From contig NC_049984.1 in NCBI RefSeq assembly GCF_000003815.2, positions 13,800,001 to 13,864,000 on the forward strand: a DNA stretch of 64,000 nucleotides, read 5' to 3'. The notes under the pieces were generated by a model that saw nothing but the letters and a program-made list of their open reading frames with translations, was not told where the DNA came from and did no database searches. This document shows positions 6,090-52,470 of the stretch, one piece after another. Positions within the stretch are counted from its first letter, which is position 1; each line of letters begins with the position of its first letter. Both the position numbers and the translations under genes were made by a program. This stretch comes from Branchiostoma floridae (taxonomy: Eukaryota > Chordata > Leptocardii > Amphioxiformes > Branchiostomatidae).

Positions 6090-7688
6090 CCTCACCGGTT
6101 CCTCTACAAAATGATGGAATAAATGGAAATCACAGCGTTGTCAATTTATTTACTTCCTACCAAATAAATCTTGCTGTTGTAACTGAATCAAAAACCGCGC
6201 TGTAAAATGATATCCAAAATGTATCCAAAATAGCTTTTCAGTATAATAAAAGGATGTGTACTTCTAGATTCGCTTGTGTAATCTGCATGATTGGCTAACC
6301 ATTTGTGGGGACATGCATGGGGGCATGAGTAAGAGACATTCTTTGGGGATTTGTCAACGCCTAGAGCTAGAGAGAAGAATACCTGTAGGTATAGATGGCT
6401 AATTTGAACCTACATGTATTAGTAACAATCCAGTAAACAAGGGATACATCTACATATTGAAGTTGGTTTCAATGCCTAAACTAAAGTCAAATTCTTCTCA
6501 TTTTGAAGATCTACGAGACACCTTGAACATGCACACACATCCATAAATTTATATTTGATAGAAATTAGGATGGCCTTACCCGTATTTACGTACAAGCATC
6601 CATACTATTCATGCAGGCCGCAACTTCGTACCAGTAGTGCATACAGCGGTAAAATCCATAGTGGAAAAAAGTGACTTGTTCTTGTAGCCATGTAATTCTA
6701 CGGTCGGGAAAACGGTTGGACTTATTATTTTCCCCACCAATCACGACTCAATATTTGATGTGTTCTTTACCAATAGTTTCCTGATCACATGATCTACTGG
6801 TTCTATTAGTGGTTATAATGCGTTTTTTAAATTTCAGGTCGCTACAACTTACAAGCCCCGACAGTATAAAGTTTCTGAGCGAACACCTCTTATTCAGTTC
6901 TGATAGAGCAGCATGCAATATCAGTGGTCGGGAAGATGAGAAAAAATTGAACGTGTGAATAACATAAGAAACAAAAGCGATAAATAAACACAAAAGGAGT
7001 TTTACAGGCTCCACATGTCACTGGAAAAACAGGAGAAATTGGCTACTGAATAGACAGGTAACACACAGAGTATAGAGCCAGCCAAAGCACTAACGGCGCC
7101 AATTCATTTCTTAACTACTATGGTGTGTTATCTGTTCATTTGGCCAAATTCTACGTTTTTTTGCAGCGACAAGTGGAACTTTGTAGGATCTAGAGTTTGC
7201 AACGTACTCTAGATTTTTGTAGTTTGGCCGTAGACCGACCATTAATTAGATATCCGCGGTAACCGGATCGGAAAGGCGCGCGCTCCCTAGAACAGTCATA
7301 GCTCGCCCGAAGGACGTGTTCTATTGAGATGAAAATTCCGCCTTGTCTAGTGACATGGCCTCAGATAATTTCGGGGGAAACCCTTTACGCCCTCAAAATC
7401 GATTAAAAGACAAATACCACCAGAAAGTATGAGATTCGCGCTTTCTGTCGCAATATATTTCGTGTTGGTTTGAAATCTGCGTCAAGGTGAAAACGGGCGG
7501 TGTATTTGCACCAAAAATGCCTGATTTCAGGCCATATTTTTGATCGGGTAAAGAAAACATCTTGGCTCAAAAATCAATGGGAGCAAACTAGCAAGCTTAA
7601 ATAATGCACGCAAGTTGAAATAAGGGAGATTCATGGTTGCGTAACTCAGCGACAAGCTTTTTTGTGAGGGGTGTTGACGCCCTGAGCC
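6090..7688. other. Intergenic stretch, no gene recognised
   Basis: After two AATAAA signals belonging to the Schlafen-like gene (about 6119 and 6162), I see no exon with convincing coding content on either strand. The open frames here are short and lack splice context. The part from about 7200 to 7500 is slightly richer in CpG. Confidence 0.4.
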
Positions 7689-8492
7689 ATGGAACGGACT
7701 ACTTTCTCTCGCGGAAGGAAAAGAGAAACGCATAGAACTCTCGACGTGGCTTTGCGGCTGGATGGCAACATAGTCAAGACCCCAAACCTTCAGGACATGT
7801 TCTTACAGGGCAAGTTTCAGAAGAAGCCCTTTATCCTTGGCACTACCACTGATGAGGGCTTTCTTCTTGTCTACCAATCATGGTACCCAAGAAACATAAC
7901 TAAAAGCCAGTATGAACAGATCATTCAGGCAGTCTATCGAGGGAAAGCACAATTAGTCCTCAAAGAGTACCCCCCTGCAATGTCAGGTTCTGAAAACCCA
8001 ACTCTGTCACGTACCGCCACAGATTTCATTTATGCTTGTCCTGCACGGAGGGTGATCCGATCTGCCACTCACTTTGACCTGTCAGATGTGTGGCTGTACC
8101 ATTTTGACCAAATCACGGAGTCCAAGGGTGTGAACCTGTGGGGGTCTGACTTTGAGTGTTACAATCGCGCCTGTCACGGCTCCGACGTCCCGTATCTCTT
8201 CCAAACCCTGAAGCTAGCCGGACTGAACGTGACTGATGGAGAACAGAGCACAGCCGACTCCATGGCTTACTACTTTGGAAACTTCCTCCACACCGGAGAT
8301 CCCAACAACTCAGGATGGCGAGTTTCCTCCCAGCACCAGGCCCATCCACAACAGTCTGGTGATGTCATCAACTGGCCAAAGTACAACAAGCTCAACAACT
8401 ACGTCAACATGAAGTTCACAGCACCAACTAACCAACTGGAACAAGGATACCTAGCTGAGAAGTGTGATTTCTGGGACAAGAACTTTCCATGA
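7689..8492 (+). pseudogene. 5'-truncated carboxylesterase-like paralogue (C-terminal half)
   Basis: A 267-codon open frame whose residues from about 25 onward match the C-terminal half of the complete esterase at 9466-11563: FLQGKFQKKPF, then TTTDEGF (probable catalytic Glu at residue 56), then CHGSDVPYLF (probable catalytic His). The final motif LEQGYLAEKCDFWD is shared with the neighbour. The signal peptide, the first half of the fold and the nucleophile GxSxG are absent, and I could not find them in the 1.5 kb upstream. The neighbour encodes the matching region in one exon, so the break is not at a known exon border. However, a TAG acceptor near 7735 leaves open a split gene with lost or distant 5' exons. 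There are no internal stops or frameshifts over about 240 conserved codons, so decay is recent or the fragment is used. Without the serine it cannot be an esterase. Confidence 0.6.
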
Positions 8493-9465: not shown

Positions 9466-11563
9466 ATGGCATCTGTAGTGTCCACACACCTCTCTCTTCT
9501 CCTGCTCTTTATGATGAAGAATGCTGCCAGCATTAATGCTACAGATGGACCCATAGCAAAAACTCAGTTTGGTCCAGTCAAAGGGATCTATGCTGATGAA
9601 GCAGCTATCTTCTTTGGGCTGCCCTTTGGCATGCCACCAGTAGGAGAAATGCGCTGGAAACCACCACAGCCGTTCCACACTAGCTGGGCACCCAGCACTT
9701 ATGATGCAACCTTTCCTAGGCCAGGCTGCTACCAGGTGAGCCTAAACTATTATGGACAAAGCTTGGACAATCGGATACTCATTACTGCCCGTTAACACAT
9801 GGATCTATTAAGCTGTGACCTATTTTATAGGACCCAAGTCTCAAATCTTAATTCACTTCAGCCAGAATAACGTTAGGCAGACTATTATCATCTGTTCCAC
9901 ACCTAGCTACCTACAATATGGCACTAAAGAAAAACAATCATGGACGAAGATCTACATGCATGTCTATATTCATGGCATTGTTACAAAATAGTGGTTCAAA
10001 CAATGTTAGCACTCAATCTAAAACATCTGCCAGATAAAAATCAAGAGGTCATCAGCTAAGGCAGCTCTATCTGTGAGCTAGATTATCTTCAATATTATCT
10101 CATGAAAAGATCCATCGGCTTTATGTTTGTTTGGTTTCATTGTACAGGATGACTGTGGAGCAGCACCAGATCCAGACATCAAACAGGCCTGTCCACAAGA
10201 TGGAAAGTTCAGCGAAGACTGTCTGCACCTCAACATCTTCACCCCCCTCCCCTTTAACCCAATGGAAAAGTTACCTGTTGTTATCTGGTTTCCTGGAGAA
10301 CAATACGTCTATGGCTCAGCAAATAGCTTCCTCTTTGATGGGAGATTCCTAGCTAGTAAGACACATGCTATTGTAGTCACCACTAACTACAGACTTGGGG
10401 CTCTGGGATGTCTGGTAGCTGGGGAGGGTGATGGAGCGGCTAAAGGGAACTATGGAACACTGGATCAGATAACTGCCATGCAATGGGTCCAGAGTAACAT
10501 TAGAAGCTTTGGTGGAGACAAAGACCAGGTGACCATCATGGGGCAAAGTTCAGGTGCAGATTCTGTGGCTCTCCACCTTATGGGAGATGACACAGAAAAC
10601 TTGTTCCAAAGGGCTGTCATGATGAGTGTACCTTTCCACTTCCCGCATAAAACACAGAACCAAGCTGCAAAGCTGGGACAGTCCTTTGCAAGATATCTAA
10701 ACTGTACATCTGGTGACATGGCATGTATGCGTAATGCCTCACCACAACATATCATTGATGTACAATGGAAAGCCATGGCTGTAGACCCATTCCAGCTTGC
10801 AGAAAAGTATGTTAAGTGGGCTCCTATTGTAGATGGTAAGATCCTAACTTCTCAAGATGATCTTGACATATTCCTCCAGGGAAAGTTTCAAAAGAAGCCT
10901 TTTATTATAGGCAGCACCACTGATGATGCATTTCCATTGATTTATGAAGCATGGCAGAAAAACATGACAAAAGAGCAGTACCAGCAAGTTTTGGACACGA
11001 TTCTCATGGGAAAAGCATCCGAGGTGCTGAAAGAGTACCCACCCGCTCTTACTGGAGATGAGCGCCCGACTTTGGCCAATCTTGCCACGGACATGTTTTA
11101 CACCTGTCCAACCCGCACAGCCATCCGTTCAGCCATCACACATGGCACAACAGACGTCTGGCTCTACCACTTCGATCACGTCGTGAAGGGAAAGGACTTG
11201 TGGCCTCACCAAGACCAGGTGTGCTATGAGAAGGTTTGCCATGGGTCTGATCTTCCCTTCCTTCTACAAACATTGCCGCTATTTGGACCTAAGATGACAG
11301 ACTTGGAACAGAGCATGGCTGATGACATGGCCCTCTACTTTGGGAACTTCATCCACACTGGTGATCCAAATGGTCAACCACACCAAGCTTCCATCCACCA
11401 ACCCGATCACTTTCATGGCTCTCCCAGGCCAAGTAGCATCTATTGGCCAAAGTACAGCAAGGAAGGGGGCTACATGAACATGAAATTCACAACATCTGGT
11501 ACACAACTGGAACAGGGCTACAGGAGCCAAAAGTGTGACTTCTGGGATACAATTAGCAGTTAA
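9466..11563 (+). CDS. Secreted carboxylesterase/cholinesterase-family protein (crystal-protein-like)
   Basis: Two exons, 9466-9735 and 10148-11563, join in phase 0 (donor CAG|GTGAGC, acceptor TACAG|GAT) to give 561 residues, the normal length for this alpha/beta hydrolase family. The N-terminus MASVVSTHLSLLLLFMM is a signal peptide. EDCLHLNIF is the family signature, GQSSG carries the probable nucleophile Ser224, and CHGSDLPFLL carries His455. Two catalytic features are unusual. The acid position, DEG in the upstream copy, is DDA here (Asp350 for Glu), and the oxyanion-hole HGGG segment reads WFPGEQY. It may be a weak or altered hydrolase or a binding protein; both changes are seen directly, the effect is inference. 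A polyadenylation signal at about 11620 lies only about 15 nt from EXOC2 exon 21 on the other strand. The two esterase copies are a tandem duplication. Confidence 0.85.
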
Positions 11564-27856: not shown

Positions 27857-30800
27857 TTACAGAACAGATAAGTCACCACATGACTTGGCCTTCAGTTTGG
27901 CCATTCTGTCCTGAACTGGCAAGAACTGGTCAACAAAATTTTGTAGTTTCTTCTTGTACCGTCCGTGGCCGTCGCCTGCGCATGCTTCGACGGTTGTTGG
28001 CTTGTCTGTTGAGATTCCTCTCCCACGCAGCCGCAGCTGTCGGACCACACCCTCGAACAGGAGGTCCACGTTTAGGTCGTACATGGCTGACGTCTCGATG
28101 AACTTACAGTCCAGGACCAAGGCGCAGGAGACGGCCTCTGGAAACATGAAAACATATTAAATGGATGCCTGTGTGATCAAATCATTTGGACCTTTCATTT
28201 AGTTCCGGTGTATTGCATCATGTATATAGTGGCAGTCATATTGACATGTAAAAAAAAGATAGCAACTGTGGTTTTATTGCATTCAGCAGACATTAATTTT
28301 CAAGACACAGCATCTTGTAAATGTTGAGATAAAAAATTGAGTTCCTTGATTGTTGAAATGGCAACATATGCCCCGTTTGTAGACTGAATAATAGATTCTT
28401 CCATTTAACGAAAGTAATCCAATCAATGAATATTTTATATAGACTTGCCTTTCAAAAGTTACAAGGACACATGCACATTCATGGACTATACAATACGGGC
28501 TTATGTTGTAAATGCCCTAAAGAGAAAAGAAGGCTTGAAACGTAAGCTCACCTTTCGGACACACCTGCCTGCACCTGACCAGGTCGCTCTTGTTGGCCAC
28601 CAGGATGACAGGTGTTCCACATGCCCGCCGTCTCTGCCGCAAGGTGGCGCACGTGTTCAGCGCCTCGTTAAAGCTGGCCGTGTCCGTGCACGAGTAAACC
28701 ACCACGAAGGCGTTCCCAACCTCCAGGTAACTGTGGTCGATATCTTCCCGCAGATCCTTGGAGGGAAAAGACAACGAAGTAAGACCGCAAGGCTTGACTA
28801 GTACACCGAATCTTTTTGAACCTCGGTGAAAATTAAATGTAATCTCATAAATGTAAGTTTATACCTGTAAGACAACATGTCTTCATCCATCGCTGTGATT
28901 CATATGATATCACATCTACGAGTAACTCAATGCGTTAATTCACAGATATGGTATGAATTAAAGAGAAAGATTATGACATGAGTAGCACCTTGGCAGACAT
29001 GTCCAGAATCCATAGCTTGGTGTTCTCGCCGCCGACTTTCAGTTCTCTCTCGTACACCGTACCGAAGTGATGCTCTGTAACATTCAGGGGAAGTAACGTT
29101 AGTCTGATGTAAGTCCTGCTCATATCATTCAAGAAATCTGCCGCGTTGGCATGTGGGTTGGTACTGATCATCATTCCACTATTACTTTGGCTTAGGTCCC
29201 TTTGCCGAAACGGGCCCCGGCCAGGATGTTTGCGGAAACGAAAAAAATGAAGTGTTTACCAAGGAATATATACAAATTATGCTCCTTAAATTTTTGACGT
29301 TCTGTGTGTTTTGTTACTTTTCTTATCATATTGTTCGTTTCCGAAAGCTACCTGGGGGGCTTTACTAGGCAACCAAGTAACCATGGGATGCGCTCTTCAT
29401 TCTGTACTGCCCAGCAACAAACAACTACGAGGCCATTAAAAGATATGACTGGATACGCCATACAAAGCTTATCAATTAGTGTCATATCAGTGCCCATGTA
29501 CACACAATTGAATATCTCACGACATTCTGTATTGTCTAACGGTTCGCGCCGTGAATTATAGATGACTGATGAGGATATTTCACTGCCGATATGACCTAAT
29601 TTCATGGCAGTCTTTTACATGGAACTACATCGACCAATGATTCATTTGGATATTAACAGTAAATTGTTTATTGAGAACAAATACTTCCAAAAAACAATCC
29701 CTTTTTTAGAATCGTCTATCTCCTCATACAAGAATTGTCTGTCTTCAAGTTCTGTCAAAGTCTCAGACAGATGACAGATTCATGCCTCTACCCAACGCAA
29801 CGCCGTTTGAGCTGAGAAGCACCAACAACCCAAACCACGACACATTCTGTAAACTAGTCAATGCCAGTACTCCTTAAGATCATCCCCCTTCGCTGTTTGT
29901 CTACGTTATCCACGACTTAAATGGTCATTACTTCCCCTGTGTAATTGCCTTAATCTTTGACGTGAAGCTGTACGTAATAAGCTTAAGCTTCAGACGCACA
30001 TGTCAAAGCTTAACGATTGTCCCGGCTCAGACTTGCCGGGTCCATCAGTATTGTCTGTCCTTGACCGGCTATGACTGGCACTTACTGTAGACATTTGAAA
30101 CTATTTGTGACTCCATCGTTTTCACCCGGAAACACGCTTACCGGGACTTCTTACTACATTTTACAAATTATAAACAACCATATTAATATTGACACCACTA
30201 GTTCTCAAACCAGCCCAGTGGCGCACCCAAAGGAGAGCAACCGAACAACAGCCCATACAAGCCCGAACTGACACTGACAATTTTTTTTTTTCGCAAACTA
30301 TACCGGAGTGGAACTCCCAGCCTGGCAAGGTTGTAACAGCCCCCGCAGTTGGGTCGTTCCGTGCCAGGCTGGTAGCTTCCCCGCCTTAGCCCAGGACCCC
30401 CCCCCCCCCACACACACACACACACTTTGCCCCTGATAGAGCTATCTGGGGGTAGTGGAATGTAGATGTAGGACTTTTGTCCAATTGAGAAAGTGCGAAA
30501 GTGCGAGCTCTTACAGTTTCATCACTTCATTAGACACCATGAAGCACCATCACGAGGACACCCTCCATTAGCACCCACACCATCTACGCACATCAAGCCC
30601 CAGGACTCGCCAAGAACGTAGGAGCGGTGCTTCTCTTTAAATATCATGTATACAAGGGCCTACTTCTATATACGGGATGGAAAACAAGAGGATCTGTACT
30701 GTTTTGAATCCCCTTATCCCCTGCACTTTGCGACTACGCCAAGACTCTTTGTAGAAAGCCGCTTGGTAATGAGTTCTACGTCAAGGGGGCGTATTTGCGT

Positions 30801-38099: not shown

Positions 38100-39110
38100 A
38101 AGTAGTTATCATAACACTAGGCAGTAACCAAGGCAATGTACACGTAGCAAGGGGGCGTCTTAAACAACCCATAGCCTGGATAGTAAGTACTAGTCATCAG
38201 TGGTTGCCAGGCGAAAGAGATCTGATGAGTGAATGGTTGTACTACCCTACCTTCAAGATGGGGGTGTCGTTTTAAAAATTGTATTAGCTGAAGATACTAC
38301 CATGATTCCCACAGTCGGCATGCTTTATCGGGACGTGATTAACTGACATACAAAAATACAAACACAGACTCCGGCAAAAACAATACCCTCTAAAAGTAAT
38401 AATCTTTTATTTGCAAATACATGCCCAATGGCTATGATAAGCACAAGCACAAATAGCATGGAATGATGATGATGAGTAAAGTGACATTAACAGATAACAT
38501 CTATACCAAGAAAGAAAAGTACTAAGATCTAGAACTGCCTTTGTAGGGATTGACTTCTTCGTAGGAGGCGGGGGAAGACGAATTCAACTGCTTCTTCAAT
38601 AATATGTGCGATCCTTAAATTTCATTAGAAAGATGATTCTTTGTTCATCTGTAATGATGGGGAAGCAAAAATAGATTTTTGACGCTTCTGTAAGTAATTG
38701 GTTTCTTTTTTCCTCATTAGGTGAAATGACTTTCGTCTTCCGCTGCAATATCCGCAAATTCTCCCGACGGAGGTAATAATTGGTTGGATAGGAAACAGTG
38801 GCTCATGTAGGATACAAAACATTTGATGGTAGAAACAACAATGGATTACAAAATATGGACCTGAAGATGTACATCGAAAACAATCGCTTAAAAACACACC
38901 AATGTTTGAAACCTCAGGTCTTAACCTCACTTGCAAAGCCATATTTGTCAAGTCTGTTTGGGTAAAGCAAATCCAGAGTTTAACACAACTCCATTATTGG
39001 TCCCTATTCATTATACAGTACATTCTTAGGGTATCAATGTGTGTATCAATATCTTAGGGTATCAATGTGCGCCAAGCCGCAAGTCAAGTCAAATTTCCTT
39101 GGCGACCTTG
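38100..39110. other. Intergenic stretch, no gene recognised
   Basis: No coding content is evident. A - strand polyadenylation signal (TTTATT on +) near 38404 could serve the vWA gene whose stop is at 39487. A short duplicated phrase (GGGTATCAATGTG) occurs near 39025 and 39058. Confidence 0.35.
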
Positions 39111-39116
39111 CTGTTG

Positions 39117-39355
39117 TTTCAGTACACGGCAGGGTATTTCTTTTACAGGAATGCTTTGCTAGCCATTCCCCTTTAACGTGCTCTAGACATCTCCTCGGAT
39201 ACGGGATCCCCATTTAATATCCCACCCGAAAGACGGGTGCAGCCTTAACCGAAATGCCCTTCCCAGGCTTTGACCGGGGGTCTCCCAATTACAAACTCTT
39301 TGGGACCAGGCGCTCATCTGTTAGGTTGCTACCAGTTGAGCTACAGGGACATCCA
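39117..39355 (-). mobile_element. tRNA-derived SINE, copy 1
   Basis: On the - strand it begins GTCCCTGTAGCTCAACTGGT, which resembles a Pol III A box, then shows a poor B-box region. A body follows with CTTTCGGGTGGGATATTAAA and GAGCACGTTAAAGG. The same order of segments is found at 58244-58418. The tRNA-like head does not fold as a complete tRNA, so it is not called a tRNA gene. Confidence 0.65.
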
Positions 39356-39486
39356 TTCAGGACATGACGTACTGTGAGAAAGTTTCAAGCGGTGGCAGAG
39401 GCTGCAAAGCACACTCGATTGACAACATCGCGACGCATTCAAACGTTTCTGTACAACCCTTTGTCTGAGGTTCACGGTAGTGCCGT

Positions 39487-42400
39487 CTACATGATACTGC
39501 AGGCGCGAGACTTTGTAGACCGGGCTGAGGACGGCGGGCTGTCGTCATCACTGCTGTCATCCCCTCCTATGGCTCCCACCAGCTGAAGGGCAGCCAGGAC
39601 AGTGGCAGTCCCCACAACGACGTGTTCTAAAAAGTAGGGAACAAATCATTCAAACCTGTCAATACAATCATCACATGTACATTCCTCTATATCACGAGGG
39701 TATGTTTACTTACAGATAGCATGGTTTGGTTCCATGCAGATGGTATGGTTTTGTCCCATATATGCAAATCAACGGTTTGCATGTTGCCCACAGATGTGAT
39801 TCTCTTTTCTATAGTCTTTAGATAGAATCATTTCACCGTTAGAATTTTACCTACCCTCCAGCTCAATTTCCTTTGTGCCGGGTGGGCGATAGCGGTAGTT
39901 GGCCTTCGTTCCATTGGGCCAGCGGACCTAAGGAAGGGAACAGTGAACGTGATCTCGAAGAGAACATGTCCAGTAATCCCAACGGAAATTGTTAGATTTC
40001 CAGAAATTGTCTCTTAACACAGATAAATCAATAGATCAATGTATCTAGCCAGCAGTGAGAGAAAAGTCATAATTTTAACCATGTCAGATTGGGAGTCGTG
40101 TGGAAAAGATGAAAAGAAAGTGTCTGACGTGAACGTTGAAGGTCTCCCTGGGCTGGACCTTGAACACGGCTCCCACACTGCCCCTGCCGCCGTCCTGATC
40201 CCCGTAACGCGCCTGCCAGTCTCTGCCTGCAACGGCAATACATAACATTACAACTACTAAGTTTGCAATGAAAGAAACAGGTTTTCGGCTTGTACGTAGA
40301 GCGGTACGTAGAACTACCGGGGCTAAGGGTGCTCGCGATAAACAGGATAAAGTGGAGAGATTTGAAGAAAGACTGATTGTAGTTGCAATGTGTCCAGAAC
40401 ACTGTGGATAACGTATAACGTATAAAAGTGATGTCAAGGGGAAATAACTTACGGTAGTTAACGTTAGTGTGGATAACAAGGTCTACTCACCCCTAACCAC
40501 GCGACATCCGACCTTGACCCCACCACTTCCCACGGCGCGTACTTCGTCGACCACCTGTACGAAACCCAGCGTGTGACAGAAACTTTCAGTGTACCTTCTT
40601 TAGAAGACTCAATATACCACGAAGTACGGAAATATATCAGAACACATCCGTGTGTGAATCATACATTATACCATGTGTTGACATGGCCATCAGGAATTAA
40701 AAATTCTTCACTTAGTCATGTCTTGTTCATATACATGCGTTGGGTTTTTGCAGCACGGCTGCTCAGGCTTGTCACATAGTTTCTGTACTACGTGGCTTAA
40801 AGCCTTGTGATGCTCACAAGTTCGCTAGCGTTGACCTCTACTTACAAAGAGACCATAGATAGATAAAGTAGTCCATACCCTGACGTCTTTGGCCCCCTCG
40901 GCTCCAAATCGATAACGGTAATTGGTGGAGTCATCGTAGTCCCACTCCACAACAAGCTGGCCTGGAAGGAAGGAAGAACAAGAAACAAATCTTAACTATG
41001 TGTGCCCAAATCACGCTAACAATGCTGTGCCAGGTTTTAAACTGCAGAATTTAAGTTATTTTTTATCATTTATATAAGACAGAAGACTTTCGTACGGAAG
41101 CGTGAGAAGAATGAGTTTTTCGTTAATTGTGATGTTCGTGACGATAGTACTGAAATGTGTGACATTTTCCTCACCATCACCCCTGTGCTTGACGACAGTC
41201 CCGACACCAAAACGGTCCTGCGGGCCCCATTTCCAGTCCCTGCCGCGGCGAACACGTGACCCGAATGGTGGCATGTTTGGCTGCTCGCTCTACAAACGAC
41301 ACATGTGAAAGTACCGTTTTATGATATGATGTATTGCTTTGCGACAATCTATACAATCCTTGCATTTAATTTTGTGACTTAAGAAGATATCTTGATGCTC
41401 TACTGTCAAATGTATCACACAGCTGAGCAGGCCCAAACGTGGAACCAACAGGGCAAGCGAGAGAGGGGAAGGCCCAAGAGCAGCTGGAGCAGTGACACCG
41501 AGGAAGAGATGAGGAGCATCAGTAACAGCTGGTACGACCTCAGAAGGAAGGCCTAGAGACCTGTGCAGTGGAGGACGATCATCGGTGGCCTACGCTCCGA
41601 CCGGGGCAAAGGGCCCAAGTAAGTTAGCCTCTGGCCGGCTAACTCCCTTAGCGTACAAACTGTTATAGACTGTATTTGTATTTCTACAATTAGACCACCG
41701 ATCCGCGGAGCCTGGTAGAGGCCACAAGTAACGTTAAGTAATTGTCAAATGAAGCATGTCGGTCTGACTTACGTCATCGTCGTCGTCATCGTCGTCTGCC
41801 GCCATCAGCAGCATGGCGAGCAGCAGAGTCTTCAGACCGGCCTGTGGGAACGGTTGGGATGGGAGGAGTTAGAGCTGCTCCTGATGATATCAGTTGCCTT
41901 GGTAATATCGCATGTTCCAATGGACCGATAGGCTGGTCATGTCTGTCAGGCAGCAGGTTATAGAGTCCTACAGTATGCATGATTTTCTGTGACTAAATTT
42001 ATATTCAAGCTCTTCATCGCTTCCATGAGACCTTCGAATATGGGCGTGGTCCCCCTGCTTTTAGGTTGTCTGTGAATGTATAAAGTCACATGTGTCTGTA
42101 TCTGTATCTGTAGCTAAATTTATATAGCCGGTATAACCGCCCTTTTAAAAGTTTAAACATTACGTCATATGAAGAACCAGTCGTGAGGATTTGTGACCGA
42201 TTTATTCATCTACTTTACCATTGCTTTACCTTCACTTTGCAGCAGACTATCCCACACGACGTTTGAAACAGTCCTTACCAGTTCATCGCTGTCCACACTT
42301 TCCCCCATCTTGGCCATGAACTGCCGCAGGACCATGATGTCTCGCAGCTTCTGCATGTCTGAAGTTCAGATAGAGTTAAAAGGCCGAAACGGGGGTTGTG

Positions 42401-44404
42401 AGTATATGTTAAGGAATATACAAAGGTTTTATTGAAGAATAGTACAGTGAAACTGGGAACAATGATTTTTAAGGTTCTTACCGTGGCCAAACTGGGCCGC
42501 AAAGCGGATGAGAAGCACCTAGATATCGAGCATAAAAATGAGCATCAGTACATGTTCATGTATTATAACATCGTATAAGAGCGCAAACGATGTTGAAATG
42601 GCACTTACGAAATTGATTAAAATAGGAGGAAAGTTACTTATACCTACCTGTCTTCGGAAGAACTCGGACAGCTGACTGACGTCACCCAGGATGTACATAC
42701 CGTTGGTGAGTTTGGCGATGGCTTGGAGGAGATCCTTAGACAGTGGCAATCAACGGTGTACATAAGAAGAAGTACCAAAACAATATCAGTGCAAAAACCG
42801 TGAGACTCATCCGTTCAATAGTAGCGTCCTTGATCTAGACTTAGCCCGCGCCCGACCAAACACTTCGTTAGATATACATAAGGATATCAACACTAAGTCA
42901 CTGTTTTGTTGGAGAAGACAGACAGTGTCTGTACCTTGTCCACGTCATCACCACACCCCACGCAGGCTATGGGGATGGGATGCGGCAGGCCCACCGCCTG
43001 CCAGCCCGCCGGCCCGAACGACAGCGCTGCCTTCAGGACGTTCTCCTTGTCCTGTGTACAAGGATACTGTGTGAATTGTACGTACGATTTAAACGGTACT
43101 CCTAAAACACTGACCATAGAAACAATCAGGCGGTAAATTGGCAAGATCCTGATAATACAATTGAAGTAGCAAATTATGAATTACGTCAGGGTAGCCGTCT
43201 GTCATTAAGATGACACGAGGGGTCATCTTCCGACCACCTGGCAGGGTCAGCACGCCACCTAGCGGCAGAAGTGTAAAAGTGTCAGTTTGTGAACTTCACA
43301 AGAGGTGACTGCATTGCAACAACATCACATGCGGCAGATCAGTCATATTCCTTCACCACGCTTTAAAGACAAGGATGGCAAAAGCTAACAAGCCAAAGCA
43401 CGGAAGTGATGTTTGTCATCATCAGTAAATAGCAAGGGCTACTCTCACCAAGCGGAGGCACGTTGAAAGCACTGTTGATTTCGACAACACAAACGTGCCT
43501 CCAACGTGCCTCCAACGAAATCCAACGCGTCTCCGCTGTGTTTTTGAAATTTACTAAACATCTTACCGCGCTGCAGAATTTCCTTCATCGCCTCCATGAG
43601 ACCTTCGAACATGGGTGTGGTCCCTCCTGCTTTTAGGTTGTCTGTGAATATAAAAAGCCACATGTGTTTGTATCTGTAGCCGGTATAACCGCCCTTCGGC
43701 GTAACATAACAGCATATGCATTCTGATGGACCGACAATGAAAGATCTAACATTACATCCATTCTTAGATACGCAGCAACTTACTAGTATCTATGACACAG
43801 TGAGTCTATACAGTTATCTAGCATGCCCACTTGATAATGTTATGTTGTCATTCTGACGTACCAACAGACTGCATGACGGTCCCGTAGTTCCCGGACAGCG
43901 GTTGGATGATGCGGGCTCCTCCACCAAACTCTACCACGGCCACGTTCTCTCGGAGGCTCATCTTGTTCGCGGTTTCTGTTTTGCAATTAAGAATACCCCA
44001 TAGGAGAAGATGAAAATGAAAACTGTAACTACTTAGATACCAAGAACATGTCGGTGTTTAACAATCTAATATGGCCTTGTACACTTTTCGTCTCTCTTAC
44101 ACTTCCAAATGCGGACTTTTACAGCATATATAGGTCAATGATTTATTGAGGAATTTTTAAACGAAACAACATGTCTAGATTGAACTGACCATTACAATTT
44201 CTAGTATCCATTTTTTTAGCCACATCGTCCTATTATATCACAATTTAAATTTGTTGCGCAGGTAAAGAGTCCGAAGCTCCGATCACACATTACGTTACCT
44301 TGTACGCCGAGTAGGAAATGTCGGACTCCCTTCTTCAGTTCGGCCATCCCGCGGCCGTTCATGGAGCCTGAGGTGTCCAGGCACAGGACCGTGTCCAGCG
44401 GCAT
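39487..44404 (-). CDS. vWA / MIB-HERC2 protein with C-terminal CaaX box (paralogue A)
   Basis: Fifteen exons, 44299-44404, 43862-43975, 43567-43641, 43185-43258, 42935-43051, 42648-42734, 42482-42518, 42279-42358, 41773-41841, 41175-41289, 40879-40961, 40491-40554, 40129-40226, 39855-39927 and 39487-39626, close in phase to 443 residues. Residues 5 to about 190 are a von Willebrand A domain with MIDAS motif DTSGSM and ILMTDGYPD. Residues 233-253 are a hydrophobic stretch followed by eight Asp. Two MIB/HERC2 domains follow (GRDWKWGPQD near 267 and GRDWQARYGDQDGG near 341). The end is CSIM-stop, a CaaX box identical to that of prelamin A and favoured for farnesylation. No signal peptide is present, so a cytoplasmic, membrane-tethered protein is inferred. 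Family function is unknown to me; MIB/HERC2 domains in Mindbomb proteins bind substrates. Paralogue B lies 3.5 kb upstream in the same orientation. Confidence 0.9.
41430..41625 (+). mobile_element. Remnant of a LINE reverse transcriptase C-terminus
   Basis: A + strand reading, AEQAQTWNQQGKRERGRPKS..., then a TAG, then VQWRTIIGGLRSDRGKGPK-stop, matches the usual C-terminal end of RTE/CR1-like endonuclease-reverse transcriptases (GKRKRGRPK, tryptophan-rich, then GGL). It lies antisense in intron 9 of vWA paralogue A. The in-frame TAG and lack of the upstream domains show that it is dead. Confidence 0.7.
42008..42146 (-). pseudogene. Decayed duplicate of vWA paralogue A exon 3 within intron 8
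   Basis: The segment repeats most of exon 3 (43567-43641) and about 50 nt of its upstream intron, including TTTTAGGTTGTCTGTGAAT and GCCGGTATAACCGCCC on the + strand. Compared with the true exon it has lost one base in the GCAGGAGGGACC stretch (- strand), shifting the frame. It also lacks the donor end. It is a non-functional exon copy produced by a local duplication. Confidence 0.8.
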
Positions 44405-47400
44405 GGTCAGTGGACAGCAGATATATAGTCAGCACAGGAATGGGCTGGCAAAGGACGAGACAACGAAAGAATGAAAACGAGAGAAAGACTGACATGATTG
44501 CTAAACACAATTTACAATATACTAATGTAGATAAGAGATTGTGGGGAACATCTAACTATGCCAGAGTTAGACATTTAGGTAAATTTTCATCCGTAATTGC
44601 ATCTGTTTGTTTCCTGACGATTAGCCATCGGACATGACTATGTAGATAACTAATACATAGATAATACAATCAACTGATCAAAGTTATGATCCGTTAGACA
44701 ACGTTTATGATATCCACAGTAGCAGAATAGTTAGGATAGATGGTGCTTTTTAATCTTCCTGCTAGGTTCTAAACTAAGTAACTTCATACGTTGTTTGACT
44801 CATATTCGTACCCTTCGATTCACCAGTCGCCCAGAAAAAATAGGCAACGAAGCAAGCATGCCGCTGGCAGTTATGTTAAAAGTTTTGTTTGTGTGCCGTT
44901 AAGGCAAGCTGTGTTTGAACATATTATTTGCCATACACGACCTCAGTAAACTATAATCCATCTGTAAAGCATTACATTCTCCCGCTGAGTCGATCGGAAC
45001 ATTAGATAATGTTCGCACAAGTGCACAAATGACAACCCGCGTCTTGACTTTAACCTTATCGGTACGGATCGCTGATGTTCAAAGCTGAGAGTATTGTGGT
45101 GTCTACACCGTACATAATTATCATGTTTTGAACAACCCTCAAAGGCATGGACATGTTTTGTTTCGCCTGACAGGTGGTTGCACACGAAAGGGGAAGTTCT
45201 TGCCTTATCACAGGCAAATACTTTCCTTTATATAGCGTGGATTAGGTACTTAAATTTTGCGTTTCGTTTAACCTAAAGCTTTCCGTTATTACATGACGTG
45301 GGAGCATAGCGGACTAAAAGAAGGTTTTGTTGCTTTGTTAAGTGATCAGCGAGCCTATTTTTGATAGTCACCCGCCCCTTTTATACGGGAGGGAGCGTTA
45401 TTGGCAAATAAGTTCACCAGAGCGCTGCACTTATCTAAACATATTTTTTCCTATCTTATATTCACGTGAAACTAAACGTTGGCCAGTCAATTTCGACCTT
45501 AGCGGAGGTATATGTATTTCCAGGTGGTAAATCCCACGGTTGTAAATTGGTTTATGAATCGATGTTCCTTTGTAACACTTTTGCTCACATGCAGAACAGG
45601 TATACCTGGCTTTGAAATCGATCGTTTTATGAACTGATAAGTATCACTTGGGTTATTTGTAGCCTTCCCACTTTACATGGATTACATTCCGATTAAAACG
45701 GATCTTTTACCGCCTTTGCTCTTTGTCCTAAATACACATTGTCGCCATTTGTTGACTTTCACCCTAAACTTGACTTTTCTGGCATACCATCCTTATCCCG
45801 TCTCCCAGGTAAACTTCTTAATTTTCATTACACCTGGTGCTTCTTCAAACAGACAATGCGTCTTATTGACATGTCTAAGATTTAAACTTACCTGAGTGTA
45901 GGTTTTAAGACGTGCGGTCGCGCAGTTCTTCTGGACGAGTAGAAAAACAACTTGAGTAAACAACCGTGCCGATGGCGTAACTTTAAACCTTATTAAGACC
46001 CACGCCTGGGTTCCTCCATTTCTCAGTGGGGGGCGAAGAAATAGATATCTAAATAAATTCCGTATACGTGTAAAGAGAAGTGTGATAGTACTCCACACCT
46101 CGAGCAAAAAGGCACAACATATGAGGACACTTATCTACTACATCTGTGGCAATCCAGTTTAACGTTACCAGGAACGAAACTGCCCGCTTCTTAGAAAATG
46201 ATGTTGACGTTACCATCTCCTTACCATATAAGGTAAAAAAAGTTAGGTCTGTACCCTTCAATTACCAGAACTTAAAGTTAATCAGTAAACTTTAAACTTG
46301 GACTATAAAACAGAAGTAAATTTTGTATGATTTAGTGACCTCTTGATGCAACACACGATCTCTTGCAACAAGGTCATTGTAGGATATGCTCTTGGTAAGA
46401 AAGGGTCAGAGGAGTTAAATGTACGCAGTGAACTGGTGACAACTTGTTGGTGTAGTCATGGCTCATTTGTCGCCATTGTTTAGATTCAACTTCCTCCTGG
46501 GGAAGAACTACTTTCACTTTTGCGCAAAAGCCGTTTGTTTGTTTGATATATCTAGTTACAGTGGGTAGGTAATCCAACCTGCACTTGAGAATACCAGAAA
46601 AACCCGGTGTCCCTTTGGCGTAAACCTTAAACTTGTCTTTGAACTATATTTCTTCAAACTATAACAAAAAATCTATTCACATTGGACAACATTTAACAAT
46701 CGAAGTGTTAGCCACTGAACTGCTATGATGACTGAGCAATGGGTTCTTACACAAAAAGAGGGTAAACAAGTTACCTGCGCACCTGCAGTTGCCCTGACGT
46801 CCTGTGTCAACATTAAAGCAGTAGATAGTGTAAACAAAGTTAACTTGGCTCCGGTACATGGAAACTAGGTCGTTGGTATCACTGTACTTATGGTACGAAA
46901 AATGGTAAAACAACGGCGAGACATGAGAAAGATATAGATTGGTACTTTCAACGATTTTCTGGCGAACCATGGTTAATGTTACTTTCATTAGTTTGTTACA
47001 CTTTGGTGAACCATTTAACCTCCTTGGGTGAACAGCATGATAAAAGAATAAGCTGGTGTTTCAATATGCCATATGTTTATGATCTAAAGAAGAGATCTAA
47101 CTCAGGTTTTAACAGCACAGTTTAATGTCTAAGAAAGGTACTAACTGTAATTTATTAAAGTACGTAACGTTAGCAATGATTCTGTTACAAATAACGTTAG
47201 TTAACATAATAGCGGTTACTGTGTCAGTTATCCTTTTACTGTCACTAGTTTGATCTATGTATACATTAGTAAAATTTACTCCAGAAAAAGGCAAACTCGA
47301 GAGCACATGGTGCCTTCTAGTCCAGAAACATTTCTTTCGATACCGATGATGGAATTCTGGAAATGGTAATCCCATTAACTTCGTATAGCTTTGAAAGTTA

Positions 47401-47927
47401 CCGCATTACTAGTATATACTTCCTCTTATTCTTGTTGAGCTCAAGCATAAATGCGCTTGAGATGAAGCGAAATGCTCTCTGCTATCTAACGTTGATAGTA
47501 CAATGTTGCGTCGCTACAGCTCACATTCATATAGATTACAGCTAAGCACATTGGGTTAACCCTACTCTTCTCGATACGTGTATTGGGTTCTTTAGTTATT
47601 ATATAGACAACAATATACCAATATATTTTATATTATATAAGGTAACAATATAACATTACCAACATAAATGTTAATCAAAGGTTTTGCATGGAGGGTTGCC
47701 TTCATCTGAATAACCATATCACCAGCTAATAGTGTCCTCGGGTAAAGTTTGTTGAACTAGTAGAAGAATGTGGCTTAATGTAGTATTTTCGTTCCACCTG
47801 AAAGCATACAAATTAAGAAAGCTGGTGTGACCGTCTCAACCGTGTTCATCTCCATTTAAGGGTACATCACCCACTAATTTCGTATTTTTCTCCATCTGTG
47901 GACCTTTCGCGTTTACGCCTGGCGGGT
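44405..47927. other. Spacer between the tandem vWA paralogues
   Basis: It contains the presumed promoter of paralogue A and the 3' UTR of paralogue B (a - strand AATAAA near 47147). The part from 47580 to 47660 is very AT-rich. Several TAACGTTA-type palindromes occur (for example about 46160, 47165, 47193). No further exon is recognised. Confidence 0.4.
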
Positions 47928-50900
47928 TTACATGACACTGCAGCCGTCAGAGGAACCCCGGCGTGTTCCCGTGCCGGGCCGGCCGGAGGAGGGGCGGGAA
48001 GAGCCGGACGGCCCGCCGGACCCTGCCAGGCTCAGGGCCGCCAGGGCAGCAGCCGTGCCCAGTACCACGTGTTCTGTAGGCAGGGGCAAACGGTCAGTGA
48101 GAAGTTTCGTAGAAGTTGAAAGTTAAAGTGACGGAAATCACACGTGTCACAGAAGCAAATAGAACTGTAAAACGTTACGGTACCTTCCATCTGAATCTCC
48201 TTGATGTTTGGCGGCTGGTACTTGTACACGTTCTTGTGCTTGTTGGGCCAGCGGACCTGCAAATAGTGTTAACACTGTCCATCATGTAACGTTACTGTTT
48301 GTCTTTCTATAATAAGCGTTTTAAAAGAGACCAGATATCTTACAATTCATTGATTCAGTCTCACATCATCTGTGTTATACTTGTAGATCGTGACTTAATA
48401 CGTGACTGAAGCATGGTGACATCAGAGATGTTTCTTACGTGCACGTTGTAGTCCTCCCCTTGTTTGACCTTGTAGACGGAGCCGACACTCCCCCTCCCAC
48501 CGTCCTGGTCACCGTAGCGAGGGGCCCAGTCTCGCCCTGAGGCAAGGACCACACATCAACTCTCGAACTGTAACCTCCAATGCCATTATATCTAGGCGCA
48601 TACATCGGTACAAATGTAACCTAGCTCATACTTGTATGAGATGATGTAAAAGACTGCATGCAAAATACTAGCTCTACAACTGTCGCCCAGGGCTACTTAA
48701 GTTACACAATATATCGTGATATCTCCATAAGTTGGGAAAATTATAGAAGTGTACACTTCAGAGAGACATCCTCACCCCTGACTACCCGGCATCCTGGCAT
48801 GATGCGTCCGTCCGGACCGACAACTCGTGGTTCGTCCACAACCTGTAGGTAAAGACAAATATTGCACGACAACTGTCCTATCCCCACAATACGTAAAAAC
48901 GCTCACTGATTTGTGTTTCTGTCTTAAATGCAATGGTTTAAGGTTTTCCATTTTAACTAATAAGTATTTATCTGGTTCCTGTGACAGAACTTTAGACTAC
49001 GATTATGGGAGAACTTTAAGTTTTAGAACTGCTTCTTTCTTTCTTCTATCCGGTCCTTTTCATCATATTGAACGACGACTGCGTACCCGACACTTACCCT
49101 AACGTCTCTTGCTCCCTCTGCGCCGAACCGGTACTTATAGTTGGTGGAGGAGTCATGGTCCCACTCAACCACAAGGTTGCCTGAAATCATGTACGTCATA
49201 ATACCCCCTCACATGTAGCGAAAATCGATCGGACGACGAGTCTACGAGCTCTAAATTACGAGGAGGCATGACCCTGACGGGAAGGGGGGGGGGGGAACTC
49301 TACCATTTCTTCGTCGGCAACAGGGTCATTCCTCTTCGTAATGTAGAGCTCGCAGACTCGTCGTCCGATCGATTTTCGCTACATGTGAGGGGGTATAAAG
49401 AGGCTAGAGCTACGACTTCTCAGGGATTCTCATCATAAATGTAATAACCTTCTATCACAAACATACGTCCCATCAAACAGACACACCGCCGAAGGCAGAA
49501 AAGAAGCAATCAGTACCGAAAATGTGCATATCCATTCTTACCGTCTGACTTGTGCTTGACGACCGTGCCGGTACCCTGCCGGTCCTGGTTCCCCCACTTC
49601 CAGTCCCGTCCGCGCTGCACGCGAGATCCTAGCGGCGGCATGTTGTCCTGCTCCTGGTGCAACAGAAAATCAGTTTCCTATCCATACTTCTTGTTGCATG
49701 TTATATTTTCTCTTAGTTACGAATGCAGCGATATTGTGTGATTATCAGAATATTGTAATCTGAGTTCAGTTTAGTTCATCTGTAACAAGTAATAACGATA
49801 ATAATTTTCACTTCTGTCATGATCTTAGCCTGTACATCCAAATACAACAAAGGCAAATGATTCCTGAAAACAACAAATGTGACGGACGTTCATGGTAGCT
49901 CCGGTTTATACCTATCTTACTGACCCTTACCTCATCGTCGCTGTCGTCATCCTCTGCAGCACATAACAGCATGGCGAGCAGGAGGGTCTTCAGTCCGACC
50001 TGAGGAGAACCAAGGTGTGGAATGAGCAAATTTCAGGAGGACTTCTTGTGGTGAATTCGTGAAAAAATAACTTTATTTTGAGTTTGATCTGTGCCATCCT
50101 CAGAGTTAGATCTTAAACATCTTCGATATGAGTTTGTCCCAGAACTGCGCGTGCGCGCTCACCAGTTCTTCCTCGTCCACACTCTCTCCCATCTGGGCCA
50201 AGAACTGGCGCAGTACCATCAGATCCCGCAACTGGCGCATGTCTGAAATAGCAAAATTAATCAAATGACTGGAAATGGCAACTACTGAAAGTTGATAAAA
50301 TGGATGGACAATATTTTAATTATCGTTCCTTACCATGCGAGAACTGGGCTGCAAAACGAATCAGAAGCACCTGAAATCGAAAGAAAGATTTCAGATCCGT
50401 GTGAAATCGAAATAATCAAAAGGCTTAGGACACAAACACAAATAGCGTAGAAAATCTTTTAAAACTATGCGATATGCAACCGATGAATATCTTATTATTC
50501 CACGTGGAACAAACAACACAAAAGACAAATTGTTTCCATGTGATGCATGTGATGCACCTGTCTGCGGAAGAACTCGGACAGCTGGCCGATGTCACCCTGC
50601 ACGTACATGCCGTTAGTCAGCTTCGCCACTGCCTGGAGAAGGTCCTGGGACAAAAATGAGCGTGTGAAAATCCAATAGTAATACTACAGAACCACATAAA
50701 ACGTCGGAGGAAATTGAAGTGTATAAATTGTTGCTGACTTGCTTGGCTGACAGGTACTTACTCCGTCCACGTCTCCGCCGCAGCCCACGCAGGCTATGGG
50801 GATGGGATGCGGCAGGCCCACCGCCTGCCAGCCCGCCGGCCCGAACGACAGCGCTGCCTTCAGGACGTTCTGCTTGTCCTACACGTGCGGAGAACCAGGG

Positions 50901-52470
50901 AGGTATGTATTTAGGGTTTTCCTTGTCAAGGTCTCTACTTAGGGCAGAGACTACTAGTATCAAAGTTGACGTACATTTTAAATTTGCACGTTATATTTGC
51001 CATCTAACTGGCAATTGTGTTCCCGATTCTTGTTCTGCCTTTGGTATTAACACTTACGTCAGGGTGTCCGTCGGTCATCAGGATGACCCTTGGGGTCATC
51101 TTCTTCTGACCAGACAGAACCAGTACGCCGCCTTGGGGGAGAACGGGAAGGAGTTACAAGACTTTCGGTATGTGACCTTAAAAACCCTTTACAGATCTTT
51201 TGATCTCTCGCAAGTGATATGCTGAAAAAATAGTCTACCAATCTATTTCCTATGTTGCAATGTCATTATCTTGTAACAATAACATCCTCCCATTTCAGTC
51301 ACTATCCCTGCTACCCCTCTCTCTGTATCAGAATCGTTGAAATCATCTCTTCATTGAAAACTGCCAATTGCTAATGTTGATATAGATGTGCAGAAAGTTT
51401 ATCAAACTGTACATGTCTGAATGAAAAACAAAAGAGTATATTAGAGAAGATGTACCGTTCTGCAGGACCTCCTTCAACGCCTCCATGAGACCCTCGAACA
51501 TCGGTGTGGTACCTCCTGCGTGCAGGTTGTCTGTGCAAATTGTTAACGATGCATTTTACGATGGCTATACTTACGCCATGAGGATTAACCAGATGGCTTT
51601 GAACAATAACACAGGGAATAAACCTGACACTTAACACTCAGAATGTTGCAAAACGTAAGCTCGCTGGTGGGACAGAGGCGTTAGTCTAAATGTGGAAACA
51701 ATACTACTAAGCATTTATCTTTATCATCTAATAGTTTCCTCTGAGATAAAAACGCATTCTATTGAAGTGAAATGACTATATGAAGGAAAGGTAGTATGTC
51801 TCCCGTACCAACAGCCCTCAGAACTGCGGCGTAGTTATTGGTGAGTGGTTGGACGATGCGAGTTTTGGCGCCAAATTCCACCACCCCAACATTCTCCCGG
51901 AGATTGTGCTTGCTGGCCGTCTCCTGTCGACGAGAACAACGATATCGTTTTTGAAGACCAATGATTTGCATGGGATTAACCCTGGTAAATCAAATTGATT
52001 TTACTCTATGTAACCGCAGTGCACATGTAGCTAGGGAACAAAGATTACGATTAGAGCTCGACCTGCTCGAACTCTGACATCGACTTTTGAAAAGCTTCTC
52101 CGGAGGATGTGTCGATGTGAAGTTATTGTTAAAAAGCGCCCCCTGTCGGTAACATCAGATAGGACACAAACCCGTATATAGTACTCTTCATGTGGGGAAA
52201 GTCCATGATATCGTAGAAGGAAAGATCTTCAATTTTCTGAGCATACTGTGTGACATGGCAGTCTAGTCTCCCACCCTTTAGTTTCCATTCAACAGTATTA
52301 CATGTAATGTTTACATAACACATCGCGCGTCTGGGGGAAAAGAAACACAGTGGATTCTTCCTCACCTGAACGCCCAGAATGAACTCTCGGACGGCCTTTT
52401 TGAGTTCCCTCATGCCCCGTCCCGCCATGGAGCCCGACGTGTCCAGACATAGCACGGTGTCAAGCGGCAT
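47928..52470 (-). CDS. vWA / MIB-HERC2 protein with C-terminal CaaX box (paralogue B)
   Basis: Fifteen exons, 52366-52470, 51809-51923, 51456-51530, 51058-51131, 50762-50878, 50558-50644, 50334-50370, 50163-50242, 49931-49999, 49542-49653, 49098-49180, 48776-48842, 48439-48536, 48184-48256 and 47928-48073, close in phase to 445 residues. The architecture equals paralogue A: MIDAS DTSGSM near the N-terminus, ILMTDGHPD, hydrophobic plus acidic segment (LLLAMLLCAAEDDDSDDE), two MIB/HERC2 domains (GRDWKWGNQD, GRDWAPRYGDQDGG), and a proline/serine/glycine-rich tail ending CSVM-stop. The CaaX end is thus kept while the preceding tail has diverged completely, which argues for selection on prenylation. 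Intron 1 is in phase 0 here but phase 1 in paralogue A. A second in-frame ATG lies 9 codons upstream of the chosen start, but similarity to paralogue A begins at MPLDT. Confidence 0.9.
49201..49396. mobile_element. MITE with 76-nt inverted arms in an intron of vWA paralogue B
   Basis: Arms 49201-49276 and 49321-49396 are reverse complements with only a few mismatches and enclose a 44-nt loop with a run of 12 G. If the terminal repeat begins CCCCCTCACATGTAGCG, it is flanked on both sides by TA (49202-49203 and 49394-49395), the target duplication of Tc1/mariner-type elements. It sits in intron 10 of paralogue B and is absent from the matching intron of paralogue A. Confidence 0.85.

Follow-up and report, generated by a model that had tools for sequence, protein, structure and literature searches.

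Two tandem paralogues, here called gene A and gene B, lie at positions 39487-52470 of the window, the 64,000-nucleotide stretch of Branchiostoma floridae DNA analysed here (contig NC_049984.1, positions 13,800,001 to 13,864,000). Each encodes a von Willebrand factor A (vWA) domain, a hydrophobic and poly-Asp linker, two MIB_HERC2 domains and a C-terminal CaaX box. The pair had been proposed in an earlier note on this DNA and is confirmed; it is encoded on the minus strand, a detail absent from that note. In the reading that we favour, with a probability of roughly 55%, the two products are predicted to be RING-less, cytosolic, farnesylated membrane adaptors. Feature coordinates are collected in table 1.

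Gene models

Splice sites in both genes were chosen manually, using the other copy for guidance. All 14 introns of each gene have GT-AG ends, with lengths of 123-483 nucleotides (nt) in gene A and 91-442 nt in gene B, and the intron phases are equal in the two genes except for the first junction, which is offset by one base. The coding sequence of gene A (1332 nt) ends with the codons TGC AGT ATC ATG TAG and that of gene B (1338 nt) with TGC AGT GTC ATG TAA. Because 330 of the 442 aligned residues are the same in the two proteins, with a synonymous divergence (dS) of 1.14 and a nonsynonymous divergence (dN) of 0.21, A and B are conserved coding genes and not chance open frames; on these values the gene models are under purifying selection. 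Exons 9 and 10 are separated by 483 nt (A) or 277 nt (B), with an identical phase. Given this short gap, the shared phase and the same order in both copies, exons 1-9, which encode the vWA half, are read together with exons 10-15, which encode the MIB half, and exons 1-15 are taken as a presumptive single gene in each copy.

In exon 5, 28 consecutive codons are identical between A and B without a single silent change, against an overall dS near 1. Since 88 nt are identical despite that divergence, the exon 5 tract is probably the product of recent gene conversion.

Intron 8 of gene A contains, at 42006-42106 (minus strand), a partial duplicate of exon 3 together with the intron sequence upstream of that exon (93% identity over 42 nt, 91% over 56 nt). 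It departs from the exon 3 sequence close to its beginning and appears dead. Intron 10 of gene B carries an 81-nt inverted repeat (49196-49276 and 49321-49401) with arms that are 93% complementary and 44 nt apart.

A retrocopy of the gene A transcript

A genome search identified a copy of the gene A 3' end on another contig, C11. The copy starts with the last 18 nt of exon 14, crosses the modelled exon 14-15 junction directly and retains the CSIM codons and the stop. Its identity to gene A is 93% over 1084 columns and 86% over an overlapping last 282 columns. The alignment extends 1,093 nt past the stop, ending just after an AATAAA; an A-rich tract comes next, and the copy is flanked on both sides by a 13-nt target-site duplication, ACAATTATAGATA. 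Judged by these features the copy derives by retroposition from a spliced, polyadenylated gene A mRNA and is truncated at its 5' end. Because the retrocopy joins exons 14 and 15 and stops after CSIM, exon 15 and its stop codon belonged to the mature gene A transcript. The modelled ending is thus borne out for gene A alone, with exon 15 neither replaced nor extended in that transcript.

The retrocopy (L032 951-2001 and L033 1-300) is in sense orientation, in an apparent intron of an ankyrin-repeat gene, which has a partly duplicated exon (L032 ~256-510, judged by eye). Considering the AG that precedes the retrocopy, exonisation of the hydrophobic-CaaX tail is conceivable.

The N-terminus and the vWA domain

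The first residues of both proteins are MPLDTVLCLDTSGSM, and the vWA match in Pfam starts at residue 4, with scores in both genes above the curated cut-off of 23.8 bits. Positions D10, S12, S14, T82 and D119 are invariant in A, B and two paralogues on contigs C3 and C13, which agrees with the proposal that the domain is of the metal ion-dependent adhesion site (MIDAS) type. The products had also been described as lacking a signal peptide. Upstream of the gene A ATG the reading frame is closed by a stop at a distance of 27 nt, and the interval contains no AG, so a spliced in-frame N-terminal extension is excluded there. For gene B the claim stands less firmly: upstream AGs do exist, and the start is supported through its match with A.

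The MIB_HERC2 domains

Elsewhere MIB_HERC2 domains belong to ubiquitin ligases. The presence of two such domains per protein is upheld by Pfam scores of 79.4 bits (A) and 80.3 bits (B), in two stretches each, against a cut-off of 33.5 bits. No RING, ZZ, ankyrin or HECT family is among the five (A) and six (B) Pfam families matched at E values up to 1, and because there is no RING, an adaptor or a competitor is likelier than a ligase. Further matches, all below their cut-offs, were rejected for that reason: SH3-C_UBE2O over the second MIB domain (13.1 and 18.1 bits against 21) and DUF6835 in gene B (12.3 bits against 27).

One alternative is that A and B are RING-less competitors of Mind bomb, which would occupy the substrate tails of MIB1/MIB2 at the membrane and damp ubiquitylation, for example in Notch-ligand signalling. 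It would fit the two MIB domains found without RING or ankyrin repeats, and the second MIB domain of A is nearest to MIB1 in the PDB; the first is nearer to HECTD1. In available excerpts of one study (PMC11887331), MIB1 uses its MZM (MIB-ZZ-MIB) unit to bind the N-box of JAG1 and of Delta, and a Drosophila Mib1 without its MZM is dominant negative, which indicates that unbalanced Mib modules can interfere. However, that dominant negative had the MZM removed, the reverse of the arrangement considered here, and A and B have no ZZ finger. This alternative is considered rather improbable.

The C-terminal tail

Exon 15 runs from a hydrophobic stretch directly after the second MIB domain, through a variable spacer, to CSIM or CSVM. 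The hydrophobic stretch, overlooked in the earlier note, is the second such segment of the protein and ends about 22 residues before the Cys of the box, with about 25 residues following it. The tail before the box had been described as diverged beyond recognition between the copies. This holds for the spacer, in which 7 of 23 aligned codons specify the same amino acid, but not for codons 398-416, in which 13 of 19 do. The proportions of nonsynonymous (pN) and synonymous (pS) differences are 0.20 and 0.52 in the hydrophobic stretch and 0.71 and 0.66 in the spacer; on rounded site counts, the test of silent against non-silent change gives p=0.03 in the hydrophobic stretch and p=0.77 in the spacer.

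The box itself, as had been claimed, is kept between the copies at three of four residues, with one of 12 nt changed and a pN of 0.10. In Fisher tests on rounded site counts, nonsynonymous change is lower in the box (1.0 of 10.5 sites) than in the spacer (35.0 of 49.2 sites; p=0.0005), and it is likewise lower in the hydrophobic segment (7.7 of 39.0 sites) than in the spacer (p=2e-6). None of 483 four-codon comparisons between the preceding tails reaches the level of the box (11 of 12 nt), the best being 10. As measured by this divergence, the spacer changes as though unconstrained and the hydrophobic segment is conserved, and the comparison supports, though with four codons it does not establish, selection for keeping the CaaX box.

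The likeness of CSIM to the box of lamin A is correct: Cys stands at position -4, a2 is aliphatic and the last residue is an accepted one, and CSVM fits in the same way. According to Table 1 of PMC7674641, the CSIM of lamin A (LMNA) and the CSVM of RHEB2 both carry a C15 group.

Two alternatives bear on this tail. In the first, the hydrophobic segment is a true membrane span, a tail anchor, so that the box is lumenal or outside the cell and unused, and its retention is partly luck. The customary mean-hydropathy threshold for a membrane span is 1.6, and the Kyte-Doolittle mean over 19 residues is 2.0 in A and a marginal 1.61 in B, immediately after the second MIB domain and with the tail of about 25 residues behind it. 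The segment is also less changed than the spacer, and the paralogues on C3 and C13 possess a separate, strongly hydrophobic exon. Against a span stand the Gly/Ala-rich composition of the segment, the identity of both boxes with farnesylation boxes in use in other proteins, and the retention of the box where the spacer is not retained. By sequence the farnesyl anchor and the tail anchor are not separable; the farnesyl reading is preferred because the box is kept beside a free spacer, and the tail anchor is regarded as unlikely. In the second alternative the proteins are soluble adaptors and the CaaX boxes are an ancestral inheritance without function. There are just two boxes of four residues each, and many cytosolic vWA and MIB proteins are soluble, but a dS of about 1.1 and the near-free change in the adjoining spacer make neutral retention hard to credit, and this alternative is given very little weight.

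Paralogues elsewhere in the genome

The own-genome searches with A and B score the best candidates only. Among those candidates the vWA-MIB-CaaX architecture is confined to A and B, plus the retrocopy fragment, a result that may weaken the earlier proposal of a family with this architecture. Over the vWA domain and linker, the C3 and C13 paralogues reach 66-68% identity with A and B and 75% with each other. To residues 254-443 they gave no match in those searches. After exon 9 they share an exon for an aromatic or Cys-rich hydrophobic stretch, EEVNHCLHCVISIFFPLWIFVWIYL or its Cys-rich version; of the possible frames of this exon, the NHC..HC frame was preferred to a weaker alternative. The exon recurs in an extra partial copy on C3 and at two places on C233. 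Pfam searches with the C-terminal pieces and with this hydrophobic exon gave no family in any of four queries. The last exons of the C3 and C13 genes were also sought, with no convincing pair, and no exon bridging exon 9 to the hydrophobic exon was found.

Judging from these exons, the C3 and C13 proteins may be membrane-attached, and attachment to membranes may recur across the family. There is also a bolder view, which we consider quite unlikely: a cytosolic vWA family in which a shared MIDAS module and linker would be joined to interchangeable membrane modules, either a farnesylated MIB-MIB tail (A and B) or a Cys-rich hydrophobic hairpin exon found at further loci as well (C3 and C13), with A and B acting as RING-less, metal-gated readers of receptor tails that compete with Mind bomb ligases at the membrane.

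A small exon family with hydrophobic stretches like NHCLHCIITLFFWPWVFVWIVLV was observed at L031, L030, L034 5717-5797 and L035 (C233:221275, 225455). It is joined to vWA genes on C3 and C13, and two versions have no Pfam match.

A search of the same genome with the MIB_HERC2 profile (PF06701) gave at least eight matches, seven of them above the cut-off, in four regions (C14, C2, C7 and C1), a lower bound since exons are read singly and the split domains of A and B on C6 were missed. By alignment the C2 region resembles MIB1 and the C1 region HECTD1. None of 14 control genomes had a PF06701 match. Distant vWA matches were found on C12 (E 0.034) and C2 (E 7.8-9.9). Within up to 100 kb on each side of the window, no tblastn match that could represent a further tandem copy exceeds 28 bits, bar one at L025 (29.6 bits), which looks like chance. 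In prokaryote and viral contigs, 54 and 162 stretches fitted the peptide patterns and none passed tblastn.

Other features of the window

Table 1. Features of the two paralogues, in window coordinates
Feature	Position	Strand	Exons	Remarks
Gene A	39487..44404	minus	15 coding exons	443 amino acids; ends CSIM; splice sites and frames match gene B
Gene A vWA domain (residues 4-189)	42648..44404	minus	1-6	MIDAS DTSGS; PF00092 52.3 bits
Gene A linker, hydrophobic and poly-Asp, AGLKTLLLAMLLMAADDDDDDDD	41773..41841	minus	9	similar exon in C3/C13 paralogues
Gene A first MIB_HERC2	40879..41289	minus	10-11	PDB relative HECTD1 2dk3/3dkm
Gene A second MIB_HERC2	39855..40554	minus	12-14	PDB relative MIB1 4xi6
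Gene A hydrophobic C-terminal segment HVVVGTATVLAALQLVGAIG	39565..39624	minus		Kyte-Doolittle mean 2.0 over 19 residues
Gene A CaaX box CSIM	39490..39501	minus		as LMNA; kept in C11 retrocopy
Gene A 3' untranslated region	38394..39486	minus		as delimited by retrocopy; AATAAA near 38407-38412
Gene B	47928..52470	minus	15 coding exons	445 amino acids; ends CSVM
Gene B vWA domain (residues 4-188)	50558..52470	minus	1-6	PF00092 55.5 bits
Gene B linker, same kind, VGLKTLLLAMLLCAAEDDDSDDE	49931..49999	minus	9	
Gene B first MIB_HERC2 (residues 262-321)	49098..49653	minus	10-11	Pfam
Gene B second MIB_HERC2	48184..48842	minus	12-14	Pfam
Gene B hydrophobic C-terminal segment HVVLGTAAALAALSLAGSGG	48012..48071	minus		Kyte-Doolittle mean 1.61 over 19 residues
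Gene B CaaX box CSVM	47931..47942	minus		as RHEB2
Near-identical exon 5 tract	B 50765..50880 / A 42938-43053	minus	5	116 nt; 95% identity; 88 nt without difference

Exons of a Ras-like GTPase are located at 27860-29255 (minus strand), of which the exon at 28520-28858 is nearest to GEM, RAD and REM 1 in the PDB. The tail, ...AKSCGDLSVL, resembles the RGK C-terminus. Genes of the carboxylesterase family (Pfam COesterase) lie on the plus strand at 7686-8489 and 10106-11560. The window holds no tRNA and no Rfam match above the gathering score.

Proposed function

In the reading of A and B as farnesylated adaptors, the proteins would sit at the cytosolic face of a membrane. Farnesyltransferase would modify the Cys of the box, RCE1 and ICMT would process the prenylated end, and the hydrophobic segment would add a second, non-spanning contact with the membrane. 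The MIB pair would bind the cytoplasmic tails of membrane proteins, by analogy with Mind bomb 1, where such a pair together with a ZZ finger reads short peptides in receptor tails, and the metal site of the vWA domain would serve to bring in a second partner. As a RING is missing, each product would act by linking partners or by covering a tail, and would not ubiquitylate it. Farnesylation, location, partners and metal dependence are all predicted from sequence.

Several observations weigh against this reading. With regard to the vWA domain, a phmmer search of the PDB with the vWA part of gene B alone gave no vWA relative. The sole transcript-derived copy starts inside exon 14 of gene A and lacks exons 1-13, so it leaves the connection of the vWA half to the MIB half uncovered. 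Many novel domain combinations in lancelets have moreover been attributed to gene-prediction errors, as stated in excerpts of PMC4967905. The tandem MIB domains of A and B are without the ZZ finger of the MZM, so that peptide binding is an extrapolation by analogy. As for the tail, the comparison of two four-residue boxes has little power, and the segment is over the hydropathy threshold in A and barely so in B; if it spans the membrane, the box lies outside the cytosol.

All parts of A and B are of known kinds, and the combination of vWA, MIB and CaaX appears to be undescribed. Literature searches returned no paper joining MIB_HERC2 with a vWA domain or PF06701 with PF00092, and none combining mind bomb, von Willebrand, invertebrate and expansion. 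No such protein was found among the matches listed for vWA or MIDAS with CaaX or farnesylation, nor among those for amphioxus or Branchiostoma with CaaX or prenylation, as judged by titles and the beginnings of abstracts. A text search of several amphioxus papers for MIB, HERC2 and VWA gave nothing but journal codes in reference lists. In one paper (PMC2394772), MIB_HERC2 figures among the hubs of domain combinations specific to animals, and VWA among the hubs of combinations specific to deuterostomes, the pair itself being unnamed in the available part. Excerpts of another (PMC8195603) deal with vWA domains of bacterial immunity and with a vWA fusion in a cnidarian, with no MIB domain in the portion at hand. 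High domain shuffling in lancelets has been both claimed and disputed, as far as excerpts of two papers go (PMC4284660, PMC4967905), and because of that claim, though disputed, the architecture of A and B alone is no great surprise.

What would follow if the farnesylated-adaptor reading is true? MIB_HERC2 modules would have been freed from ubiquitin ligases and placed on a lipid anchor; nature would thereby have separated the reading of substrates from their ubiquitylation, which would allow a direct test of binding by the MIB pair. In addition, with its box conserved and its spacer free, the A/B pair offers a small natural experiment on selection for the CaaX box.

Comparison with known systems

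The Mind bomb proteins MIB1 and MIB2 carry RING, ZZ and ankyrin repeats. The MIB_HERC2 domain is common to them and to A and B, and the second MIB domain of A matches MIB1 (4xi6), whereas the RING, the ZZ finger and the ankyrin repeats are missing from A and B in the Pfam scan and a vWA domain and a CaaX box are added. The domain is also shared with HECTD1 and HERC2, and the first MIB domain of A matches HECTD1 (2dk3/3dkm); in contrast to those proteins, no HECT domain appears in the Pfam scan of A and B.

Plant RGLG ligases, which combine an N-myristoyl group with vWA and RING, and copines, which have a C2-C2-vWA order, are likewise intracellular vWA proteins taken to the membrane. A and B would differ from them in being attached via a C-terminal CaaX box, and they have MIB domains where those have RING or C2. 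The last four residues of A and B are identical to those of the farnesylated LMNA (CSIM) and RHEB2 (CSVM), respectively, but otherwise no relation to these proteins appears in Pfam or PDB searches. The C3 and C13 paralogues share the vWA domain and linker with the pair and have a hydrophobic exon in place of the MIB match.

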